Part shown: positions 7,616 to 24,102 of the stretch, piece after piece | How the letters are laid out: every line of letters starts with the position of its first letter | How positions within the stretch are numbered: the stretch's first letter is position 1 | Source of the DNA: a virus | DNA: 24,277 nt | IMG/VR virus record: IMGVR_UViG_3300028393_000323 | Coordinates: 1 to 24,277 of that record | Reading direction: 5' to 3' (one strand) | The notes under the pieces: model-generated | The model's input: only the letters and a program-made list of their open reading frames with translations | Database searches by the model: none | Told to the model about the DNA's origin: nothing | Position numbers and translations under genes: made by a program

Positions 7616-7845
7616 TGCATCCATTAGTAACTGATTTAAGTGCTGTTAAGGATCCTGAGTTAGAATCAAAAATTAATGAACTAACTCGTAAATACTTTAT
7701 GACGTATAATCCTGGCATCCAAGCCCAAATTGTTGCGGTGCTGGATTCATACAAAGAAGAATTGGATAAGCGTAGACGACTAGATTACGAAAAAATGATG
7801 AATACTCGTGATAAAGGCCTTGACAAACTCATTAATGTAAGCTAA
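7615..7845 (+). CDS. Conserved small phage protein of unknown function
   Basis: A 76-aa, mostly helical, highly charged protein without Cys, signal peptide or membrane segment. The sequence around YNPGIQAQIVAVLDSYKEEL and the basic run DKRRRLDYEKMM resembles a family I have seen in marine T4-like phages, but I cannot name it. Its ATG overlaps the stop of the fibre gene upstream (TAATG), so it is probably translated with the virion genes. A small tail or assembly accessory protein is possible, but nothing in the sequence proves it. Confidence 0.65.
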   Translation: MHPLVTDLSAVKDPELESKINELTRKYFMTYNPGIQAQIVAVLDSYKEELDKRRRLDYEKMMNTRDKGLDKLINVS

Positions 7846-7855
7846 ACTATGGGTT

Positions 7856-8365
7856 ATGCATACAGACAAGTACAGTAATCCTATATTTACAGAACAAGAC
7901 CTATTTGATTCCTTATACAAAGGTTATGAATTTAATGTTGACGACACCATGCTCGTTGAACGTACAGATGCTGTTAAACAACTAGAAACTCAGTTAGGTT
8001 TTAAATTCTTAGAACCATACGAAACTCATTTTGAAGTTGCTGATTATGACAAGGCTTGTCAATCCAACTGGTTCATGCCCAAAGCGTATAAAACTCTAGA
8101 TATTGAAGAATGGCTATATAGTCATATTCCACCCGGGGATCCCGAGCATACTAGAGTAGAAGAAGAACTGACTGCATACAAAGAACGAAATATGCTGGAT
8201 TTGTTACGCTGGCTCAAGTACTTTGTGGATACTTGCACAGAAAACAACATTGTTTGGGGTGTAGGGCGTGGAAGTAGTGTGTCCAGCTATATTTTATACA
8301 TAATCGGAGTACATCAGATTAACAGTATCAAATATAATTTAGACTGGCGAGAATTCCTGAGATAA
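7856..8365 (+). CDS. Stand-alone fragment related to DNA polymerase III alpha (DnaE) palm region
   Basis: A 169-aa protein. The last ~70 residues match the DnaE/PolC segment entering the palm: an acidic-helix start (RVEEELTAYKERNMLDLLRW), a hydrophobic helix, then WGVGRGSSVSSYILYIIGV (residues 134-152) and KYNLDWREFLR at the very end. In DnaE the corresponding text is the GRGS..gSlvaY.lgIT segment followed by ..ferFLn, after which come the catalytic aspartates (PDFDxDF). Here the protein stops exactly before them, so it cannot polymerise DNA alone. The N-terminal half (residues 1-95) is not recognised. The frame is intact, with ATG at 7856 and only a weak ribosome site. It may be a domesticated nucleotide- or DNA-binding piece, or one half of a split enzyme whose partner is outside the window. 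Function unknown. Confidence 0.65.
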   Translation: MHTDKYSNPIFTEQDLFDSLYKGYEFNVDDTMLVERTDAVKQLETQLGFKFLEPYETHFEVADYDKACQSNWFMPKAYKTLDIEEWLYSHIPPGDPEHTRVEEELTAYKERNMLDLLRWLKYFVDTCTENNIVWGVGRGSSVSSYILYIIGVHQINSIKYNLDWREFLR

Positions 8366-8392
8366 GTACTAGTATAACACAAGGAGATTGCT

Positions 8393-8659
8393 ATGGCAAT
8401 GAAAGAACAACCTAAACAGGTCCACCGAAGCATGCAAGGTAAAATCGTCGATATGAACAAATTAATTAGCCAAAATGAGCTAACTGTTGCTGTTGGCAAT
8501 GTAAAAGTAAATGCACGTGGCGACGAACTTGGCCCGGGCGGACGCATTATTAAAAAGCGTGAAGAAGTACTGCGTGAAGCCAGTGCAACATCCACTCCAT
8601 CACAAGTCAATGTACGTCAAAAGAACGTGTCCGATATGGATCCTGAAGGTAACGAATGA
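8393..8659 (+). CDS. Conserved small phage protein, function unknown
   Basis: An 88-aa basic protein with a strong AAGGAG ribosome site at 8380-8385 and ATG at 8393. The core has VDMNKLISQNELTVAVGNVK and then NARGDELGPGGRIIKKREEV, which I recognise as a family widespread among marine T4-like phages but without a proven function. The C-terminus is Ser/Thr/Gln-rich and probably disordered. It has no signal peptide, membrane segment or metal site. It overlaps the GroES-like gene by ATGA, so the two are translated together. The gap in front of it (8366-8392) has a GATAAGTA sequence that is one base from the late box, but the promoter class is uncertain. Confidence 0.7.
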   Translation: MAMKEQPKQVHRSMQGKIVDMNKLISQNELTVAVGNVKVNARGDELGPGGRIIKKREEVLREASATSTPSQVNVRQKNVSDMDPEGNE

Positions 8660-9060
8660 CATCTAAAGTAACAGGCAACTTAATTCCCCTCAATGATAAT
8701 ATTCTTATCACGGACATGAACTTTGATGCGAGAGTAACTGCCGGTGGTATTGTACTACCAAGTGATGACGGAAAAAGCGAAGGTGTACGCCATCGCTGGG
8801 GTCGTGTTTGGAAAGTTGGACCAAAACAAGTCGATGTCAAAGTCGGCGAATGGATTCTTCTTGAGCACGGCCGCTGGACACGTGGTGTTACAGTTGTGGA
8901 AGCGGATGGTAAAGAGATTACTATTCGTCGTGCTGATCTTAACGGAATTTTAGCAGTGTCCGAAGAAGAACCAGGCGATAATACATTTGGTAATCACAGC
9001 AAGGTTACTCATGCTGAGTTTGATCCAAGTTCATTTGCAAGACCAAGTTTCGAACAATAA
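8656..9060 (+). CDS. groES: GroES-like co-chaperonin (functional counterpart of T4 gp31)
   Basis: A 134-aa protein with a GroES-type beta-barrel. It opens LIPLNDNILI (like 'irPLhDrviV'), followed by the mobile-loop signature VTAGGIVLPSD (residues ~27-37) that docks the chaperonin ring. Then come GRVWKVGP, VKVGEWILLEHG and a final ADLNGILAV matching the end of the GroES barrel. It is longer than bacterial GroES (~97 aa) because of a ~30-residue polar tail and a longer loop after the mobile segment. In T4, gp31 replaces host GroES so that GroEL can fold the large capsid protein; the same role is likely here. The GGIVL docking sequence is intact, so host GroEL can plausibly be engaged. The gene overlaps its upstream neighbour by ATGA and is followed by an intrinsic terminator. 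Confidence 0.85.
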   Translation: MTSKVTGNLIPLNDNILITDMNFDARVTAGGIVLPSDDGKSEGVRHRWGRVWKVGPKQVDVKVGEWILLEHGRWTRGVTVVEADGKEITIRRADLNGILAVSEEEPGDNTFGNHSKVTHAEFDPSSFARPSFEQ

Positions 9061-9076
9061 TTAATTTTGTTTGAGC

Positions 9077-9104
9077 AACAGGGCTATTGACTAGCCCTGT
9101 TTTC
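9077..9104 (+). terminator. Intrinsic terminator after the groES-like gene
   Basis: Perfect stem ACAGGGCT (9078-9085) with AGCCCTGT (9093-9100), extendable by an A-T pair, a seven-base loop, and a TTTT tail at 9100-9103. It lies 17 bases after the groES-like stop. The loop and right flank also hold a promoter -35 hexamer. Confidence 0.8.
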
Positions 9105-9115
9105 ACCTGTATACT
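9087..9115 (+). promoter_or_regulatory. Sigma70-type promoter inside the terminator
   Basis: TTGACT at 9087-9092 and TATACT at 9110-9115 are separated by exactly 17 bases; each hexamer differs from consensus at one base. The -35 lies in the loop of the terminator. Start of transcription would be near 9122, only about 11 bases before the ATG at 9133, so the leader would be very short, with the GGAG ribosome site almost at the 5' end. That is the main reason for caution. Confidence 0.5.
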
Positions 9116-9132
9116 ACATAAAAGGAGAGTCT

Positions 9133-9273
9133 ATGATTTTACTAACAGTAGTATTAACACTCATGTCCATTTACTTTGCTAAAAAAGAATATGAAGCCAA
9201 CAGAATCTTATGGGCAATGTTTTGGGCATTTCTGTTAGGTTGGGATGTTCATACACTGTTGTCTATCATATGA
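9133..9273 (+). CDS. Tiny hydrophobic membrane protein (46 aa)
   Basis: ATG at 9133, with AAAGGAGAG seven to twelve bases upstream, opens a 46-residue frame ending TGA at 9271-9273. It starts MILLTVVLTLMSIYFAKKEY and continues with a second hydrophobic stretch WAMFWAFLLGWDV, so two short membrane spans flanking a charged turn (KKEYEANR) are likely. The stop overlaps the next start by ATGA, supporting that both are real. It directly follows a terminator-embedded promoter, so it is the first gene of its unit. Function is unknown; small phage membrane proteins of early units often alter host envelope or block superinfection, but nothing here shows that. Confidence 0.65.
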   Translation: MILLTVVLTLMSIYFAKKEYEANRILWAMFWAFLLGWDVHTLLSII

Positions 9274-9530
9274 ACTGTACATTGTGTCGTAAAGAATATA
9301 CAATAGAGTGTACACACAACCAAGGGCGGTGTCCGCATCATCCGCCACTAATAGGAAATAAAATGGAAATACAACCAAAGGATACCAGCAAGGGACATTT
9401 TTATGTTAGCCTTGCAAAAAGTGTTATTAGAATTTTAGCAGGAACAGCACTTATATATGGACTCGTGTTTGAGGCCGGCTGTTTTCTTATTTTAGCAGAA
9501 GTACTAGGCATTGTTGAGGAACTGGTATGA
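9270..9530 (+). CDS. Small protein with Cys/His knuckle and membrane anchor
   Basis: An 86-aa protein. I choose ATG 9270 because it overlaps the stop of the 46-aa gene (ATGA). The first 25 residues hold MNCTLCRKEYTIECTH and CPHH, so Cys3, Cys6, Cys14, His16, Cys21, His23 and His24 could form a small zinc site. Residues ~50-80 are a hydrophobic span (VIRILAGTALIYGLVFEAGC and on) that should sit in the membrane. No family is recognised. The next gene again starts by ATGA overlap. A host-takeover membrane protein with a cytoplasmic zinc knuckle is a fair guess but no more. Confidence 0.65.
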   Translation: MNCTLCRKEYTIECTHNQGRCPHHPPLIGNKMEIQPKDTSKGHFYVSLAKSVIRILAGTALIYGLVFEAGCFLILAEVLGIVEELV

Positions 9531-9835
9531 ACGAACGAATTCGACAACTGGCTGATGAGGCTGCAAAATACAGTGCTATAATGGCTCTTCCTACAGGTGA
9601 GTCGGGAGACAAATTATTTGTGGAAAAGTTCGCCGAGTTGATTGTAAAAGACATTATCAATGTATTAGAAACTAAAAACGAGATTAGGCACATTGCTTAT
9701 ACTACATATGACAGTAGTATGGTCGAAGCAACAGTTGAAAAAAGTATCAATGCTATCACTGAGCATTATGGAATGAAACAACATCATAGGATTAAAAATG
9801 AAAGAACTGTGGGTAGAAAAGTATCGTCCCTCTAA
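9527..9835 (+). CDS. Conserved small phage protein, function unknown
   Basis: A 102-aa soluble protein starting MNERIRQLADEAAKY, with a central FVEKFAELIVKDIINVLE. 'MNERIrelA...' with 'FAELIvre' is a pattern I know from short hypothetical proteins of many T4-like and other phages; no function is established. The start overlaps the previous gene by ATGA. The end overlaps the clamp-loader gene by 38 bases, which is long for this window, and the basic tail in that overlap may not matter for function. It has no membrane segment or metal motif. Confidence 0.65.
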   Translation: MNERIRQLADEAAKYSAIMALPTGESGDKLFVEKFAELIVKDIINVLETKNEIRHIAYTTYDSSMVEATVEKSINAITEHYGMKQHHRIKNERTVGRKVSSL

Positions 9836-10715
9836 GGTAGACGGATACGTCTTTAGAGATAATCATCAAAAAGAGCAAGTTGAGTCTTGGATTAAACAAA
9901 AAAGTATTCCGCATTTGCTGTTTAGTGGCAATGCTGGCATTGGCAAAACTACACTGGCACGAATTCTATTCAACGAATTAGATATAAATGATTTGGATGT
10001 ATTGGAAATTAATGCGTCACGCACCAACTCGGTTGAAGATGTGCGTGATAAGATTGTTAATTTTGTACAGATGATTCCGTTTGGCGACTTCAAAGTAGTA
10101 CTGTTAGACGAAGCAGACTACTTATCACCTAATGCACAAGCCGCCCTACGTGGAGTCATGGAGGAGTATCACACAACTGCACGTTTTATTCTTACTTGTA
10201 ATTATCCTAATCGTATTATTCCTGCACTCCATAGTCGTTGTCAAGGATTTCATATCGAACGAGTTGACGTTGCTGAGTTTACTGCTCGTGTGGCTACCAT
10301 TCTCATGGAGGAAAAAGTAGAGTTTGATCTCGACACATTAGATACTTTTGTTAAAGCAACTTATCCTGACTTGCGTAAATGTATCAATACTGTACAAATG
10401 AATAGTCTCGAAGGTTCATTGCACAGTCCAGAAAAAGGCGATACAGGCGAGCAAGATTACAAATTAGAAATGGTTACCTTATTTAAAGCTGGCAAGATTA
10501 GCGAAGCCCGTAAGCTAGTTTGTAGCCAAGCAAGGCCAGAAGAGATGGAAGAAATATATCGATGGTTGTATGACAATATTGCAATCTTTGGTGATGATGC
10601 AACACAGGACAAGGCTATTCTTATTATCAAGCAAGGACTTGTGGATCATACATTAGTAAACGATGCTGAGATTAATCTTGCGGCAACGCTTATTCGCCTT
10701 AGTCATCTACAATGA
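9798..10715 (+). CDS. 44: Clamp-loader ATPase subunit (T4 gp44-like, RFC small-subunit-like AAA+)
   Basis: A 305-aa AAA+ ATPase that would load the sliding clamp onto primed DNA. Residues 5-11 give the RFC/gp44 opening WVEKYRP. Walker A is GNAGIGKT (44-51), Walker B VVLLDEAD (100-107), sensor 1 is in LTCNY (Asn135), and the arginine finger lies in HSRCQG (SRC at 146-148). The C-terminal ~100 residues are the helical collar domain. All catalytic residues are present. An AGGA ribosome site precedes ATG 9798, and EKYRP near the N-terminus shows that this start is right. In T4 the gene for the partner subunit gp62 lies next to gene 44; here it is absent from the window, and the flanks are small unknown genes and a DUF2061 gene. 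Confidence 0.93.
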   Translation: MKELWVEKYRPSKVDGYVFRDNHQKEQVESWIKQKSIPHLLFSGNAGIGKTTLARILFNELDINDLDVLEINASRTNSVEDVRDKIVNFVQMIPFGDFKVVLLDEADYLSPNAQAALRGVMEEYHTTARFILTCNYPNRIIPALHSRCQGFHIERVDVAEFTARVATILMEEKVEFDLDTLDTFVKATYPDLRKCINTVQMNSLEGSLHSPEKGDTGEQDYKLEMVTLFKAGKISEARKLVCSQARPEEMEEIYRWLYDNIAIFGDDATQDKAILIIKQGLVDHTLVNDAEINLAATLIRLSHLQ

Positions 10716-17059: not shown

Positions 17060-19330
17060 ATGGTAGAACCAAGTGATAACTTACAAGCAGTTTTTGAAAA
17101 AGCAATCGATACTGCCAAAAAACTACATCACGAATATCTCACAATAGAACATCTGTTGATGTGTATGCTTATGGAGGAATCATTTGCTAATTGTTTGCAA
17201 GGATTTGGATCTGATCCAGACAAACTTAGAAAATCATTGACAAATTACTTGCATAAAGAGTGTAACGAAATTACTGTCAAAGATGTAGTAGTTAAACCAA
17301 AAAAAACGCAAAGTGTGGAACGTGTTCTTAATCGTGCATTTACACAAGTACTGTTTAACGGACGCCAACGTATTGAACCTACTGACGTATTCATTGCCAT
17401 GATGGGAGAAAAACGTAGCTGGGCATATTTTTATATTGCCGAAGCAGGTATTGACCGTGATAAGTTTGCAGAATTTCTGAATAACACAAGTGAAGAGCCA
17501 GAAGAAGGCGGCCAGGACGCTCCACAGTCAAATAAAGCACTGCAAGCATTTACAACTAACCTTAACGAAGAAGTTAAGAAGAATAAAATTGACCCGGTTA
17601 TCGGTCGTATTGACGAAATAGAAAACATTGCACTGGCATTAGGTCGTCGTAGCAAGAACAATGTAATTCTTGTGGGTGATCCAGGTGTTGGTAAGACTGC
17701 TATTGCAGAAGGTCTTGCTTTTAACATTGTTAAAGGTGCTGTTCCAGATTTCTTAAAAGACTACACTGTGTATAACTTGGACATCAGTGCCATGCTTGCG
17801 GGATCAAAGTACCGTGGCGACTTTGAAGAACGATTTAAGCACGTTATCAAGGCACTGGAAAAGAAGGGCAAGACAGTTTTGTTTATTGATGAAGCACACA
17901 TGATTAGTGGTGCTGGCTCTGCTGGCAACAGTGCCAATGATCTTGCTAACATGATGAAGCCTGCACTGAGCAAAGGCAATATTAAAGTCATTGCCAGTAC
18001 TACATGGGAAGAATACCGCAAGCACTTTGAAAAAGATCGTGCGTTGATGCGTAGGTTCCAACGTATTACTATTGACGAACCGACACAAGAAGTAGCATTG
18101 CAAATTCTCAAAGGTATTAAAAAGTACTACGAGCAATTCCACAATGTTAAAATTAAGGAAGATGCATTGCAGGCCGCTGTTAAGTTGAGTGTTAAGTATC
18201 TTGCAGATAAGAAATTGCCGGATAAGGCAATTGACTTGATTGATCTTGCTTGCAGTCGTTTCAATCTTAAACTTGCGGATGAAAGAGTTATTACTGAACG
18301 TGAGATTCAATACGAACTTGCTAAACTGACTACAATTCCCGAAGAACAAGTTATGGAGGCTGAAAGTGTGAGCCTATCTAAACTGCACGGCAATCTAATG
18401 TCCGATGTTTATGGACAAGATATGGCAATTGAAGAAATTGTTGATCGCATTGTGGTTGCACAAGCAGGATTGAAAGTAGAGAATAAGCCAATTGGTAGTT
18501 TTGTGTTCATGGGCCCAACTGGTTGTGGTAAGACTGAAACTGCTAAATCACTGGCAAAACATCTTGGTACTAAACTGTTGCGTTTTGATATGAGTGAGTA
18601 TCAAGAAAAACATAGTATCAGCAAGTTGATTGGTAGCCCTCCAGGTTATGTTGGCTTTGAAGACAATGCTGGGTTATTGATTACACAGATTCAAGAGAAT
18701 CCAAATGCAGTGGTATTGTTTGACGAAGTTGAAAAATCGCATCCAGACGTTAGCACAGTATTGCTACAAATCATGGACAATGGATTTATCACTGGTTCAA
18801 ACGGGAAGCAAGCAGATTGCCGTAATATTGTGTTGATTCTAACTACTAACGCTGGTGCTCAAGCAAACGAAAAGAATCAAATTGGATTTGGCAGTCAGGA
18901 AAAGGACTATACTGATGCAGAGTTGAAGAAGTTCTTTACACCAGAATTCCGTAATCGTTTGGATGCTGTTATTACATTCAACAAACTTGGTAAAGAAACA
19001 ACTATTAAAGTTGTTGATAAGTTTATTGATGAGTTGCGTGAGCAAGTTAAAGAGAAGGGTATCCGTATTAAGATCAATTCAGAAGCAACTAACTGGCTAA
19101 TTACCAAGGGCTTTGATAGTAAGATGGGTGCTCGTCCGTTGCAACGTGTTATTGACAAGGAAATTAAACGTGACCTTGCTCGTATGATGTTGTTTGGCGA
19201 CTTGAAGGGCGGCGGCTGGTTGCATATCAGTGTTGCAGATGACAAGTTGGTATTAGTGGCAAAACCCAAGACACTTAAAGTTCCGTTATTGTCAGTTGAA
19301 ATTATAGACAATGCAGTACAAACTAACTAA
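17060..19330 (+). CDS. clpA: ClpA-type AAA+ unfoldase
   Basis: A 756-aa protein, the length of E. coli ClpA. A Clp N-domain (residues ~1-140, with HEYLTIEHLLMCML) precedes two AAA+ modules. Module 1: Walker A GDPGVGKT (206-213), Walker B VLFIDEAH (273-280). Module 2: Walker A GPTGCGKT (485-492), Walker B VVLFDEVE (551-558), and KMGARPLQRVID (sensor 2) near 688. The long middle coiled-coil of ClpB is absent and that of ClpC is not seen. The loop NQIGFGSQ (606-613) has the IGF tripeptide that ClpA and ClpX use to bind ClpP. All active residues are present, so it can probably feed host ClpP. No ClpP or ClpS gene is in the window. Its end overlaps the next gene by 20 bases. Confidence 0.95.
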   Translation: MVEPSDNLQAVFEKAIDTAKKLHHEYLTIEHLLMCMLMEESFANCLQGFGSDPDKLRKSLTNYLHKECNEITVKDVVVKPKKTQSVERVLNRAFTQVLFNGRQRIEPTDVFIAMMGEKRSWAYFYIAEAGIDRDKFAEFLNNTSEEPEEGGQDAPQSNKALQAFTTNLNEEVKKNKIDPVIGRIDEIENIALALGRRSKNNVILVGDPGVGKTAIAEGLAFNIVKGAVPDFLKDYTVYNLDISAMLAGSKYRGDFEERFKHVIKALEKKGKTVLFIDEAHMISGAGSAGNSANDLANMMKPALSKGNIKVIASTTWEEYRKHFEKDRALMRRFQRITIDEPTQEVALQILKGIKKYYEQFHNVKIKEDALQAAVKLSVKYLADKKLPDKAIDLIDLACSRFNLKLADERVITEREIQYELAKLTTIPEEQVMEAESVSLSKLHGNLMSDVYGQDMAIEEIVDRIVVAQAGLKVENKPIGSFVFMGPTGCGKTETAKSLAKHLGTKLLRFDMSEYQEKHSISKLIGSPPGYVGFEDNAGLLITQIQENPNAVVLFDEVEKSHPDVSTVLLQIMDNGFITGSNGKQADCRNIVLILTTNAGAQANEKNQIGFGSQEKDYTDAELKKFFTPEFRNRLDAVITFNKLGKETTIKVVDKFIDELREQVKEKGIRIKINSEATNWLITKGFDSKMGARPLQRVIDKEIKRDLARMMLFGDLKGGGWLHISVADDKLVLVAKPKTLKVPLLSVEIIDNAVQTN

Positions 19331-19958: not shown

Positions 19959-19968
19959 ACGCGATTGC

Positions 19969-19976
19969 GATAAATA
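19969..19976 (+). promoter_or_regulatory. T4-like late promoter box GATAAATA
   Basis: GATAAATACTTC lies 50 bases before the ATG of the 20026 gene. A hairpin GATGGA/TCCATC (19984-19989 with 19997-20002) begins seven bases after the box, so it would sit at the very 5' end of the RNA. Confidence 0.5.
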
Positions 19977-20025: not shown

Positions 20026-20397
20026 ATGCGTATACGTGAATTATTAGAAAATAGACATTTTAACGATTTAGATTTTGTCAGTCCCACTGAAGACGGGCGT
20101 GAAATCAACTTTGACCTTATCGAAGATTTAGTGCATTTCATGAACCATGACGATAATGTGTATCGTCGTCATGTGTTTCCAAGCATTGCAAAGTGTGTGG
20201 ATAGATCCAAGGAAAATCGATCATTTAACTCTTCAGTATTCAAACCAGCTGTGGAAAAAAGCTATGAAGCATATGTTAAACAATACCCCATTCGTGAATT
20301 GCCACAATCATTAGACGAAGAAACATGTGTGAAAGTGTGTAAGAAGATGAAAGAAGAAGTCAGCAAACATATTGCCGACGGCAAGTATAAGGATTAA
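20026..20397 (+). CDS. Small protein with capsid-targeting-like N-terminus
   Basis: A 123-aa protein. It opens MRIRELLENRHF, sharing the pattern of short basic/hydrophobic start and (I/L)xE seen in the next genes and in the T4 capsid-targeting peptide. The rest is charged and helical, with DLVHFMNHDDNVYRRHVFPS and a C-terminal KVCKKMKEEVSKHIADGKY. It has no catalytic motif or membrane span. Conservation in marine T4-like phages seems likely from the style, but I cannot name it. There is no clear ribosome site before ATG 20026. It heads a late unit behind the GATAAATA box. Confidence 0.68.
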   Translation: MRIRELLENRHFNDLDFVSPTEDGREINFDLIEDLVHFMNHDDNVYRRHVFPSIAKCVDRSKENRSFNSSVFKPAVEKSYEAYVKQYPIRELPQSLDEETCVKVCKKMKEEVSKHIADGKYKD

Positions 20398-20399
20398 AC

Positions 20400-21617
20400 G
20401 TGTTATTAAGAGAGCTTTTTGTCCGTGAAGCTAATGAGCCTGTCAAGGCAAAAGTTGGCCGGGCATTTAACCACGTGGAAGATCTTGCATTTTTGCACGG
20501 GACTGCTGGCGTGATCAAAGCCCTTGAACATGTACGTATGGCAGGATCAGCAAGTGCAAAACATACACGATTTAAATGGGACGGTGCTCCTCAAATTTAT
20601 TGGGGTTATACTAAAGATGGCCAGTTTATTCTATGCGGACATAATGGCTGGAGTAGGGGTGGTACAGGCACTAGTGATGTAAGTGATTTTACCAGTGTGC
20701 GTGGTATCTATAATTTCATTCTAAATAAAAGCGGTGACACAGCAGGGCTTCCTCCGGAGAAGCAAGCAGAACGTCAGCAATTTGCAACTGAATTTAGTCA
20801 CTTGTACGAAATATTTAAAACAGCAACCAAGGTTCCAAGAAAAGGCCAAGAAATTTATTTTTATGCCGATGGATTGTTTACACAGCCGCCCGAAGAAGTC
20901 AATGGCGTTTATGAATTAAATCCAAATTTAAAAAGCAAAACACAATATCATATAAGTGTTGATTCAACACTTGGTAAGCGTATTGCAGATGGAGCACAAG
21001 CTATGGTTGCGGCACATGGTAGCTTTGATACATTTGGAGCTCCTGATACTGCACAAAAACCTGTTTCAGATTTTACAAAATATATGACTCCTACTACAGA
21101 GTTAATTGTATTAAGTCCGTACTATGCTATGGAACAACCAAAAATAGATACTAAAGCAATAGATAAGATAGAACAAGATCTTACTAAAGACAAAGCAACT
21201 ATCGAAGGATTCCTTGCACCCATCGATAAAGTATCAAATTTTAAAGGTATTATCTATCGCTATATGAATGAAAAGTCTAAAGGCGGGCAACTTGCTAATG
21301 TAGGCGATGACTTTATGAACTGGATTGAGCAAGGTGCGGCTGGTATGGTTAAAAGCGATAGCATGAAAGCCAATATTAGAAATCGCGTAAACATGGTGCC
21401 TGCAGGTGTAACTATTGTGTTTAAATATGTCAAACAAATTATGGGTCTTAAAAATCAATTGCTATCTCAACTTGAAATGGCACCTCCAGAAATAAAAGTG
21501 CTTAATTCGGAAGGATGGGTACAGTACGATACAAGTGGTGATATGCATACAAAATTTGTTCCGCGTCACGATGTACAACATAAGAGCGGTGAAGTATTGC
21601 CGCAATGGGTGCCATAA
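20400..21617 (+). CDS. Ligase-like nucleotidyltransferase with capsid-targeting-like N-terminus
   Basis: A 405-aa protein with a GTG start at 20400, backed by AAGGA seven bases upstream. It opens MLLRELFVREANEP. Residues 58-66 are FKWDGAPQI, which fits motif I (KxDG, Lys59 as the nucleotidylated lysine) of the DNA/RNA ligase and capping-enzyme superfamily. Near the end SEGWVQYD (Glu371) fits motif IV, and TKFVPR (Lys385) motif V; EIYFYADGLF (151-160) may be motif III. Together these suggest a covalent nucleotidyltransferase of unknown substrate. The large insert between motifs III and IV is unlike common ligases. Its stop overlaps the next gene (TAATG). It is probably expressed late and, if the N-terminal peptide works as in T4, packaged in the head. 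Enzyme activity is inferred. Confidence 0.68.
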   Translation: MLLRELFVREANEPVKAKVGRAFNHVEDLAFLHGTAGVIKALEHVRMAGSASAKHTRFKWDGAPQIYWGYTKDGQFILCGHNGWSRGGTGTSDVSDFTSVRGIYNFILNKSGDTAGLPPEKQAERQQFATEFSHLYEIFKTATKVPRKGQEIYFYADGLFTQPPEEVNGVYELNPNLKSKTQYHISVDSTLGKRIADGAQAMVAAHGSFDTFGAPDTAQKPVSDFTKYMTPTTELIVLSPYYAMEQPKIDTKAIDKIEQDLTKDKATIEGFLAPIDKVSNFKGIIYRYMNEKSKGGQLANVGDDFMNWIEQGAAGMVKSDSMKANIRNRVNMVPAGVTIVFKYVKQIMGLKNQLLSQLEMAPPEIKVLNSEGWVQYDTSGDMHTKFVPRHDVQHKSGEVLPQWVP

Positions 21618-22756
21618 TGAAATTAAGAGAAATATTTGAAGGTGGTGCCGGCAATGCTGTAATGCATGGAATTGAAGATCTTATTAAGATGGGCGGGAAG
21701 TCTGGTTCAAAGGCCGCTGAGAAAGAAGTTGGTGCAATAGCTAAACCGGAGACTAAAGTCATATCGCAAGCAAAAGCTATTGCAAAAGATAAAGAAAAAA
21801 CGCCCGGCTCAGCAATTGGTATTATATTTGGTCGTTTTAACCCTCCGCATAAAGGTCATAAAGCCGCTTGGCAAATGGCCAGCAAATTACCATATTGGTA
21901 TGTGGGGACAAATCAAAGTACCCAAGGTCCGAAGGATCCATTGCCGTATGATATTAAAGTTGAAGCAATGAAAACCATATGGCCTGCTGTTGAAGGTCAT
22001 TTAATGGCGGAGCAAAGTTGGTTAACGCTTGCTAGTCATTGTTTTAAATCGCATCCCGATGCTAAAACTTTAGTATGTTTTACTGACGAGGCGTGGGTTA
22101 CTAAAACTATTCAGCAATATAACGGTGTACAAGCCGCACACGGATTTTATAAGTTTGACGAGATTAAACAACAAGAAACTCCACGGTTAAGTAGTGCATC
22201 TGCATTACGAGCCGCAGTACAAGCTGGCGATAGAAAAGCATTTTCAGTTGCGGCTGGTGTTTCTGCAGAGACTCCAGTTGCTGGACATCCTTACTTTGAT
22301 TTAGTATCATATTACTTATCACAGTATCCAGAAAAGGCTGCTAAAAAAATAAAAGAAGTTAATAGGGCGGTAAGAGAAATGAGAGCACATCAATTTGTAA
22401 AAGAAAGTGGCGGAACACAAAAGATACATGGACATCATAAATCCGCTATAAAAAATGCAACTACATTCCCTGATCAAAATCAAAGTACAGGCAGTGCATA
22501 TATGGGATATCGTATGGCTATAGCTCTAGCTGGTGCTCCGGATTATCCTACTAAACAAGCGGCTGATAACTGGATTGGTGGCGATCCATTATTGGCTCCT
22601 TATACCGATGAAGAAAATGAAATGATCAATGCGGCGGCAAAACAAGTAGGAAGCGGTGGAAGACAAACTTGGAGTAATAACCGTAGTTTGGAAACTGCTG
22701 ATACTAACAAAACCAGCGCAGTTGCAAAACCTAAAAAGAACAAGTACGGAGTATAA
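21617..22756 (+). CDS. NMN/cytidylyl-transferase-like enzyme with capsid-targeting-like N-terminus
   Basis: A 379-aa protein. I choose ATG 21617 (TAATG overlap) over the ATG at 21605 because it exposes MKLREIFEGG, the peptide shared by its neighbours. After a Lys/Ala linker, IGIIFGRFNPPHKGHKAAW (residues 67-85) gives the HxGH nucleotide-binding motif (His78, His81), and TPRLSSASALRAAV (188-201) the SSxxxR signature of the nucleotidyltransferase fold (NadM/NadD, cytidylyltransferases). Both active motifs are intact. Residues ~265-379 form a second domain, with NQSTGSAYMGYRMAIALAGAP, NWIGGDPLL and PYTDEENEMI, ending KKNKYGV; this appears in other marine phage proteins. Substrate unknown: NMN or pantetheine-phosphate or CTP-type substrates are possible. 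Confidence 0.78.
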   Translation: MKLREIFEGGAGNAVMHGIEDLIKMGGKSGSKAAEKEVGAIAKPETKVISQAKAIAKDKEKTPGSAIGIIFGRFNPPHKGHKAAWQMASKLPYWYVGTNQSTQGPKDPLPYDIKVEAMKTIWPAVEGHLMAEQSWLTLASHCFKSHPDAKTLVCFTDEAWVTKTIQQYNGVQAAHGFYKFDEIKQQETPRLSSASALRAAVQAGDRKAFSVAAGVSAETPVAGHPYFDLVSYYLSQYPEKAAKKIKEVNRAVREMRAHQFVKESGGTQKIHGHHKSAIKNATTFPDQNQSTGSAYMGYRMAIALAGAPDYPTKQAADNWIGGDPLLAPYTDEENEMINAAAKQVGSGGRQTWSNNRSLETADTNKTSAVAKPKKNKYGV

Positions 22757-22757
22757 C

Positions 22758-23195
22758 GTGGACGAAAAATATCATTTAGCATTACAAACTGCATTTGCCA
22801 GTGAATATGCATTTGCACTAAAAGCACAGAACTTTCACTGGAATGTAGAAGGTCCGTTGTTTTATCAAAATCATTTATTATTTGAAACAATATACGACGA
22901 AGTATACGGAGTAGTTGATAAGTTTGCAGAAGAACTACGTGCCTTACAAATATACACACCTGCAAGTTTGCAAAAGTTCAGTATGCTCAGTAGAGTTGAA
23001 GATGAAAATCAAGTTCCTGATTTTCAAGGTATGCTAAGAGAGTTACTTGCTGATAGTGAAAAAATGGCTAACATGTTTAAAATTGTTTTTACTATGGCCG
23101 AAAATGCCGGTGATCACGGATTAAGTAATTTCTTTGCAGATCGTCAAGATGCACATAAAAAGCACAGCTGGTTTTTACGTTCAAGTTTAAAATGA
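22758..23195 (+). CDS. dps: Dps-like ferritin
   Basis: A 145-aa ferritin-like protein of the Dps family, which oxidises and stores iron and can protect or compact DNA. The start is GTG 22758, two bases after the previous stop. The signature NFHWNVEGPLF is typical. The ferroxidase ligands fit the Dps spacing: His27, His39, Asp54 and Glu58 (12, 15 and 4 residues apart), in HWNV, QNHLLFETIYDE and VDKFAEELRAL. Glu43 stands where many Dps proteins have Asp. An intact site suggests an active enzyme. It lies between putative packaged proteins but lacks their N-terminal peptide. Its stop overlaps the next start (ATGA). It might guard phage or host DNA from iron-driven oxidation; that is inference. 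Confidence 0.9.
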   Translation: MDEKYHLALQTAFASEYAFALKAQNFHWNVEGPLFYQNHLLFETIYDEVYGVVDKFAEELRALQIYTPASLQKFSMLSRVEDENQVPDFQGMLRELLADSEKMANMFKIVFTMAENAGDHGLSNFFADRQDAHKKHSWFLRSSLK

Positions 23196-23452
23196 AACAA
23201 TATAGAATTACTGCCCAAGATATAAATCCATCATCCGATGATGATTGTTATCTCGCACCAGACGATCCTATTCATGCACTGATGCCTGCGGCAGCAATGG
23301 GCGGATTAGGTAGCGGTCAGGCACTTGCAAATTATAACAATTTACAGCTGCCTCAAGTACAAGGAAGTGATAATGGGCGTATTGCCCGCGAACAAAATAT
23401 CAAACCAGGAACTGATGCTTGGTTTAAACATTGGTTTGGAGATAAACGATGA
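23192..23452 (+). CDS. Small phage protein, function unknown
   Basis: An 86-aa acidic protein, MKQYRITAQDINPSSDDDCY at the start, with a Gly/Ala-rich middle (PAAAMGGLGSGQALANYNNL) and an end KPGTDAWFKHWFGDKR that looks like a small conserved tail. No motif or membrane span is seen. ATGA overlaps on both sides (with dps and with the 23449 gene) tie it into the same translational unit. I cannot assign a function. Confidence 0.65.
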   Translation: MKQYRITAQDINPSSDDDCYLAPDDPIHALMPAAAMGGLGSGQALANYNNLQLPQVQGSDNGRIAREQNIKPGTDAWFKHWFGDKR

Positions 23453-24102
23453 AAATGTCAGATTTAATCAACGAAAACGATATGGTTTCGTTTTTTAAGG
23501 ATTTACAAAAGAACAATCCTAAATTTAAAAATCTACGGGTACACGGTGATCCAGAACACGATGAGTTACGTCGTCAAGATCAAGAAAAACGTGATACAGA
23601 ACGTCGAGCTGTACATCAACGTTCTCAAGATGCTACAGGTCAGGATCATGCTAATCTACATCAGTTAGAAGCCGAATATGAAAAAATGAAAAGAGAATAT
23701 AAGGCATTAGGCGGAAGTAGCTGGCAATATGCAGATCGTGAACAAAATCTTACTGCTAGCGAGCGTAAAGCACGTGGTATGGAAGATGGATTGAATCGTC
23801 TACATGCACGAATTGTTAGGGCTAGAAAACATGGCGAGCAGGGTATATCAGAAACAGCTACAGCAGGTGCTACATCTTCTGCTATGGGTGGTACACTTGA
23901 AAATCCGGCGGCTGTTACATTAGGAAAAGCAAAGGGCAAGAAAAGTTATACAGGAACACCTGGGCACAGTGGTACAAAAGCACCACCGCAACCCAAAGTA
24001 ATACAGCCTAAAACATCGGCTGGAACTGCTAAAAACGGGCTTGATATCAAAGCAAACATTTTTGGTCAAGCTAAAGAGTCAGCAGTAATTAAAAGACGCT
24101 AA
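23449..24102 (+). CDS. Charged coiled-coil protein with capsid-targeting-like N-terminus
   Basis: A 217-aa protein beginning MKMSDLINENDM, close to the shared start peptide (LINE matches (I/L)xE). Residues ~60-125 are strongly charged and helical (ELRRQDQEKRDTERRAVHQR). A second (I/L)xE occurs in GISETATAGATSSA at about 130-144, a style of sequence frequent in packaged proteins of T4-like phages and a possible prohead-protease site. The C-terminal third is Gly/Ser/Thr/Pro-rich and probably disordered, ending KESAVIKRR. A second ATG at 23455 could also serve. It overlaps its neighbour by ATGA. It is probably virion-internal or DNA-binding; function unproven. Confidence 0.68.
   Translation: MKMSDLINENDMVSFFKDLQKNNPKFKNLRVHGDPEHDELRRQDQEKRDTERRAVHQRSQDATGQDHANLHQLEAEYEKMKREYKALGGSSWQYADREQNLTASERKARGMEDGLNRLHARIVRARKHGEQGISETATAGATSSAMGGTLENPAAVTLGKAKGKKSYTGTPGHSGTKAPPQPKVIQPKTSAGTAKNGLDIKANIFGQAKESAVIKRR

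Follow-up and report, generated by a model that had tools for sequence, protein, structure and literature searches.

A start peptide common to unrelated proteins in an uncultured T4-like giant phage resembles capsid-targeting propeptides

We analyzed a 24,277-base IMG/VR fragment (IMGVR_UViG_3300028393_000323, hereafter the window) from an uncultured T4-like giant phage, in which a block of genes at 20026-24102 shares a short N-terminal peptide. Four of the six genes of this block, all on the + strand, open with peptides of one design (hereafter tags), and each was confirmed where the first-pass annotation had placed it: MRIRELLENRH at 20026, MLLRELFVREA at 20400, MKLREIFEGGA at 21617 and MKMSDLINEND at 23449. 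The proteins behind them are otherwise unrelated, as had been claimed. The first (20026..20397) is a 123-residue protein of unknown function without Pfam or PHROG match; its tag MRIRELLE (20026..20049) has the predicted cut LLE/N (slashes mark cuts throughout). The second (20400..21617) is a DUF6267 protein (PF19782, E = 3.4e-14) with ligase-type motifs, whose tag MLLRELFVRE (20400..20429; predicted cut VRE/A) begins at a GTG codon that is GTG in 14/14 relatives. The third (21617..22756) is a cytidylyltransferase/NMNAT-like protein that has a C-terminal KPKKNKYGV module and the tag MKLREIFE (21617..21640; predicted cut IFE/G). Although its longest open reading frame begins at 21605 (MGAIMKLREIF), 21617 is the better start because homologues align from the methionine at 21617 and diverge just upstream (AI/GT/GN/AT). 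The fourth (23449..24102), 217 residues of unknown function with weak family matches that all fall below the cut-off, carries the weakest of the four tags, MKMSDLINE (23449..23475; predicted cut INE/N). Two genes inside the block are untagged: a Dps/ferritin-like protein (22758..23195; PF00210, E = 1.7e-19) and a small protein without Pfam or PHROG family match (23192..23452).

Ahead of the block, at 19968..19976 on the + strand, stands the T4-late-promoter-like element CGATAAATA. ATAAATA occurs four times in the window, always on the + strand and 25-56 bases 5' of a gene start. The corresponding elements GATAAATA/CATAAATA at 2373, 6468, 15235 and 19969 lie on the coding strand and resemble T4-type late promoters. 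Upstream of the 20026 gene the element is kept 56-65 bases before the start in 13 of the 15 relatives examined, and the presence of such an element would be consistent with expression of the block during head assembly.

Using the window DUF6267 protein as query, no annotated phage was matched, and the cytidylyltransferase matched merely four distant ones; relatives were therefore drawn from IMG/VR. Gene starts were called with a simple purpose-made program unless taken from annotation or published coordinates. The block also occurs in a 356-kb contig (G001), in a 94-kb contig and in others. The search for a gp21-like protease proposed by the first-pass annotation succeeded in G001, which encodes an S77 prohead protease (E = 6.5e-27); PF03420 has no match in the window, as expected of a fragment. 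G001 also encodes a gp23-type capsid protein (E = 3.5e-82), which was not found in the 24-kb window. The head proteins of G001 are nearest to those of Sinorhizobium phage Phosso, and its protease is also near that of Pseudomonas phage PA5oct. The known T4 gp23 cut FLTE/A aligns with YLLE/S in G001, and in relatives also with FLVE/N, LLTE/A and FLSE/A.

The same kind of start was sought in other proteins, using expected counts obtained by permuting alignment columns among proteins so that column composition is preserved. In G001, the motif M[KR]x1-2[ED][FILMV][ILVFM] is found 11 times against 2.0 expected, an excess of about 5-fold (0/2000 column permutations), and a stricter form requiring Glu is found four times against 0.16 (0/2000 permutations). 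Further G001 starts include MKVKEILTEG, MRATEFITEG, MRVIDILSEA, MKVLDVILEG and MRAKEFLILEA, among others. In the window, 3/7 block genes fit ^M[KR].{1,2}[ED][FILMV], and the rate over six control phages is 0.0136 (binomial 8.5e-5, uncorrected for block choice). A bare (I/L)xE near the N-terminus is not enriched in G001, and the cut site alone is therefore no evidence.

Because these patterns were written after reading the G001 starts, independent tests were sought. The strict motif retrieves ipII, ipIII and gp61.1 in T4 (3 against 0.17 expected; 1/1000 permutations). A pattern-free test, in which all N-terminal pairs of a genome were compared after removal of homologous pairs, returned as top cluster in T4 ipI, ipII, ipIII, gp61.1 and ORF 144561, which looks like a thymidylate synthase; in P-SSM2, five MKSFSQFLTE-type proteins; and in G001, clustering of nine plus three tagged proteins. 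The 23449-type tag is not ranked first among G001 starts. In phiKZ, which has no S77 hit, the strict motif has 0 matches and the pattern-free comparison gives no cluster. Two further relatives, G005 and G006, present the motif in 9/48 and 9/50 genes (binomial about 2e-8; equalled in 0 and 1 of 2000 permutations). Their tagged genes, with starts of the MRLxELFE and MKINExxE types, form mostly consecutive runs of about ten (G005, L355-L356, 15360-28011; G006, L357-L358, 12899-22288), far more than in the window block, and include a single homologous pair, in G005.

Chance or N-terminal composition bias, or RNA-level selection on the translation start, could also generate such resemblances. Single tags such as that at 23449 are weak, and in the related jumbo phages CBB and phAPEC6 the motif stands at chance level without enrichment. 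The permutations preserve column composition and never reproduced the G001 counts, which argues against chance; tag codons change synonymously, which argues against selection on the RNA. Over the ten codons of the 20400 tag, 14 relatives present 37 synonymous versus 8 nonsynonymous differences (counts from kin loci and thus not independent), with all eight at residue 8 (V/I/L/F). We regard this explanation as already disfavoured and the least probable of those considered here.

The first-pass annotation had named loss of the start peptide in homologues as one result that would speak against it; the tag is instead kept down to 28% identity and beside missing sequence. The 20026 tag is unchanged in relatives of 67% identity and reads MRINELLE where protein identity is down to 40% and MKINEIFD where it is down to 28%. 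Homologues of the 21617 protein without the next ~55 residues still begin MKLREMFE, MRLFELFE or MKLRQLFE, and its C-terminal module, where it stands alone in two contigs and at G001 334320, carries a separate tag (MKVYDIICE, MRAKEFLPE). At the position of the 20400 tag, a distant DUF6267 homologue (L019) has MRFSEFSIISE, a peptide that cannot be aligned with that tag but is tag-like. Peptides like MINFSSYLTE, MKTFDELMxEL and MKKFSEIxE open most of the adjacent genes for DUF6267, a small basic protein and cytidylyltransferase in 79 marine contigs and phage Melnitz; Melnitz fails the regular expressions, but its orthologous genes nonetheless start MKKFSEIIE, MQGFKTFLSE and similar. Across 80 P-SSM2-type (cyanophage) orthologues, K2, F4, F7 and E10 are conserved at 95-100% and residue 8 is Leu in 78% and otherwise mostly Ile, while residues 3, 5 and 9 vary. 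The tag outlasts the adjoining sequence solely among the window genes' distant homologues; in close P-SSM2 orthologues it is not better conserved than its surroundings.

These patterns bear on the idea that the starts are functionless copies spread among neighbouring genes through recombination or duplication. Such copying would fit the concentration of MRAKEF starts in one G001 region and the homologous tagged pair in G005. It accords poorly with clusters recovered after homologous pairs were left out, with tags of different genes that differ in codons and vary within residue classes, and with tags that outlast the adjoining sequence. Shared ancestry without function is thus also already disfavoured, and we consider it highly improbable.

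The tagged proteins include candidate enzymes. The proposed NMN/cytidylyl-transferase-like identity of the 21617 protein is supported by phrog_3041 (E = 2.4e-15) and by the motifs HxGH (NPPHKGH) and SSxxxLR (LSSASALR), with PF01467 narrowly short of the cut-off (E = 4.8e-4). The description of the 20400 protein as ligase-like holds at the level of motifs: K59-W-D-G62, E371-G-x-V374 and K385 are invariant in 34 sequences, and KxDG, EGxV and a downstream K form the motif set of the ATP-dependent ligase/covalent nucleotidyltransferase superfamily. It does not extend firmly to the fold, as ligases top the fold search with a weak best E of 0.2 for a structure model of predicted local distance difference test score 65, and a second DUF6267 model gave no support. 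A PDB sequence search with the 20400 and 21617 proteins returned nothing useful. G001 tags are also found on M23, GH19 and LysM/lysozyme proteins and on a HAD/PNK-like protein. At L044 9020-12350 (G001 332020-335350), peptidoglycan hydrolases of the M23 (with peptidoglycan-binding domain), GH19 and LysM/lysozyme types have tag-like starts that would mark them as capsid cargo.

Published virion mass spectrometry of related phages, which allows the tag to be compared with presence in the particle, gives the strongest support. For S-CREM2 we used a motif in the T4/P-SSM2 register that was fixed before the genome was read: the published virion proteome contains 4/4 tagged proteins versus 48/189 others (p = 0.0048; PMC10665884), and p = 0.022 when restricted to proteins of at least 78 residues. 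The four are an S-adenosylmethionine (SAM) hydrolase (MKDFDSFLEE), ORF13 (MKDLHSFLTE), an APH/ChoK-like kinase (MKRFDAFLTE) and a cytidylyltransferase (MKNFSSFLTE), the last of the same enzyme family as the 21617 protein. The S-CREM2 DUF6267 protein is untagged and undetected in virions, a single case that fits targeting by the tag. Another virion-found S-CREM2 protein, Cas9-like (7704-10313, L343), has the tag-like RFASFMAEA at residues ~18-26, within an extended start. In PA5oct, whose virion proteins are those marked in the GenBank record from electrospray tandem mass spectrometry, the pre-set motif gives 3/4 virion-marked proteins versus 90/348 others (p = 0.058) and a looser motif picked afterwards gives 7/12 (p = 0.018). 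The NMNAT of S-SCSM1 is a virion protein (PMC9602691); a gene of that phage starting MKSFLQFLKEA resembles the P-SSM2 cytidylyltransferase and, by this resemblance, appears to be that NMNAT. Virions of S-SM1 likewise contain a cytidylyltransferase (PMC3037559). The virion enzymes of these three cyanophages (S-SM1 T4-GC190, S-SCSM1 ORF91 and S-CREM2 ORF154) are the same kind of nucleotidyltransferase as the 21617 protein, although the S-CREM2 tag and the start of the S-SCSM1 gene (MKNFSSFLTE, MKSFLQFLKE) follow the T4 register, unlike the tags of the window. In the parts available, the reports do not tie virion detection to a targeting peptide.

It is conceivable that the peptide leads elsewhere than to the capsid, for instance to a host protease, a chaperone, a membrane or an intracellular phage structure, and that virion detection reflects carry-over. 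The S-CREM2 and S-SCSM1 authors themselves leave cargo versus contamination open (PMC10665884, PMC9602691). Carry-over does not account well for detection that follows the tag, as in S-CREM2. Mutational mapping of the T4 capsid-targeting sequence assigned control of targeting to residues 4 and 7 and of processing to residues 8 and 10 (PMC9026906), and these are residues conserved in the cyanophage-type tags, in which the aromatic residues at 4 and 7 are present. The tag also ends at a hydrophobic-x-Glu site, after which a small residue follows in most tagged genes of G001 and G005, though not of G006. We therefore judge a non-capsid target to be improbable.

The first-pass annotation had compared the tags with MKTYQEFIAE as the T4 sequence of Alt and IPI-III. 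The likeness of design stands, whereas that exact peptide is found only on IPII and IPIII; IPI starts MKTFKEFTST and Alt MELITELFDE. For IPIII, exchange of the final Glu of the tag for Asp is reported to prevent processing while leaving packaging intact. Like the T4 capsid-targeting sequence, the window tags are N-terminal, about 10 residues long, with an acidic residue followed by two hydrophobic ones and a hydrophobic-x-Glu end; they are common to unrelated proteins, and a T4-type protease and capsid are present in the 356-kb relative. Of the (I/L)xE endings proposed as cut sites, LLE, IFE and INE match; the 20400 protein has VRE, with I or L at this position in many relatives. Position 4 is R, R, R and S in the four tags, which do not share the aromatic residues at 4 and 7 of IPIII and are therefore a variant rather than the IPIII tag itself. 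The nearest known sequence is the start of T4 gp24, MAKINELLRE/S, a protein that loses ten N-terminal residues (PMC9958956), and together with the Alt start it is closest to MRINELLE, MKINEIFD and MLLRELFVRE. Judged by this proximity, the window tags are a putative shorter variant of the T4 peptide that resembles the gp24 propeptide. T4 gp24 differs in being a shell protein and Alt in being a single injected enzyme; cargo of the window type consists of enzymes, not of small internal proteins like the anti-restriction IPI, with more tagged genes per genome. The P1 DarB targeting region and the long propeptides of SPN3US are likewise N-terminal segments that direct proteins into the head, but the P1 Dar proteins have no common short peptide, and SPN3US propeptides mostly exceed 100 residues and use an AxE site. 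In T4 itself, packaging may extend to gp61.1 (18966-19130, L361), a hypothetical protein of 54 residues whose start, MKTFKEFIKED, is like those of the internal proteins.

The gp24 likeness also suggests another role, in which proteins tethered to the prohead core by the peptide serve head assembly or genome packing and are not injected effectors. A small head-operon protein encoded between portal and protease has the same kind of start (MILRELFYID in G001; MKINDIITE in PA5oct, where it is virion-detected). On the other side, the T4 tag is borne by injected proteins, and among the cargo are catalytic families that have no part in assembly (cytidylyltransferase, HAD/PNK-like, M23 and GH19 hydrolases; in S-CREM2 the SAM hydrolase and kinase). 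An assembly role is accordingly unlikely in our view, though less so than the other alternatives.

Our results support the capsid-targeting interpretation of the first-pass annotation, and the four start peptides are very likely capsid-targeting propeptides. Several observations weigh on the other side. The tags are up to two residues shorter than that of IPIII (8-10 residues) and lack its aromatic residue 4; the 23449 tag is degenerate in relatives (MKMHELDE in G001, MKIKDLDE in L014); only some DUF6267 homologues carry a tag; CBB and phAPEC6 are not enriched; and several motifs were tried. The virion data come from related phages rather than from the window phage, those of PA5oct are suggestive at most, and detection by mass spectrometry is no proof of location inside the head.

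For the window phage, we infer the following course. The block genes would be transcribed late from the T4-type late promoter, and the N-terminal 8-10 residues would bind the prohead's scaffold core as it grows, bringing the protein inside. The S77 prohead protease would then cut after the Glu of the hydrophobic-x-Glu site, leaving a mature enzyme that would stay in the head with the DNA and be ejected into the host at infection. The phage would probably benefit by controlling NAD or nucleotide pools and repairing nucleic-acid ends as infection begins. T4 is known to use this mechanism. New here are the variant, its enzyme cargo, how large the tagged blocks are and the link to unexplained virion enzymes. 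A review has proposed capsid targeting for T4-like phages in general (PMC9026906), and our search of the papers available to us found none linking cyanophage or jumbo-phage enzymes to this capsid-targeting peptide.

We see about even odds that T4-like phages in general, jumbo and marine ones among them, use this peptide as an exchangeable address label. If so, reading the label from genomes would predict at least a dozen preloaded and injected proteins per phage, comprising nucleotidyltransferases, ligase-like DUF6267 proteins, HAD/PNK-like enzymes and peptidoglycan hydrolases. The NMNAT-like, kinase or hydrolase proteins reported from virions of several cyanophages may be cargo or contaminants; for these, the tag offers a mechanism together with a testable prediction. 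If true, the proteins that uncultured T4-like phages inject could be predicted from sequence, and the tag would suggest what families now annotated as hypothetical do at time zero of infection.

Two further features were observed. At least nine proteins of CBB (L139-L157) and phAPEC6 (L158-L175) share another start, MLPFxRxxxYGN; because several RCC1-like "DNA condensation" proteins of phAPEC6 are virion proteins by mass spectrometry (PMC7247149), this start may be a different packaging peptide. Finally, the tail-gene region of the window encodes a papain-family (C1) cysteine protease (1526-2374), which is unusual in a phage.

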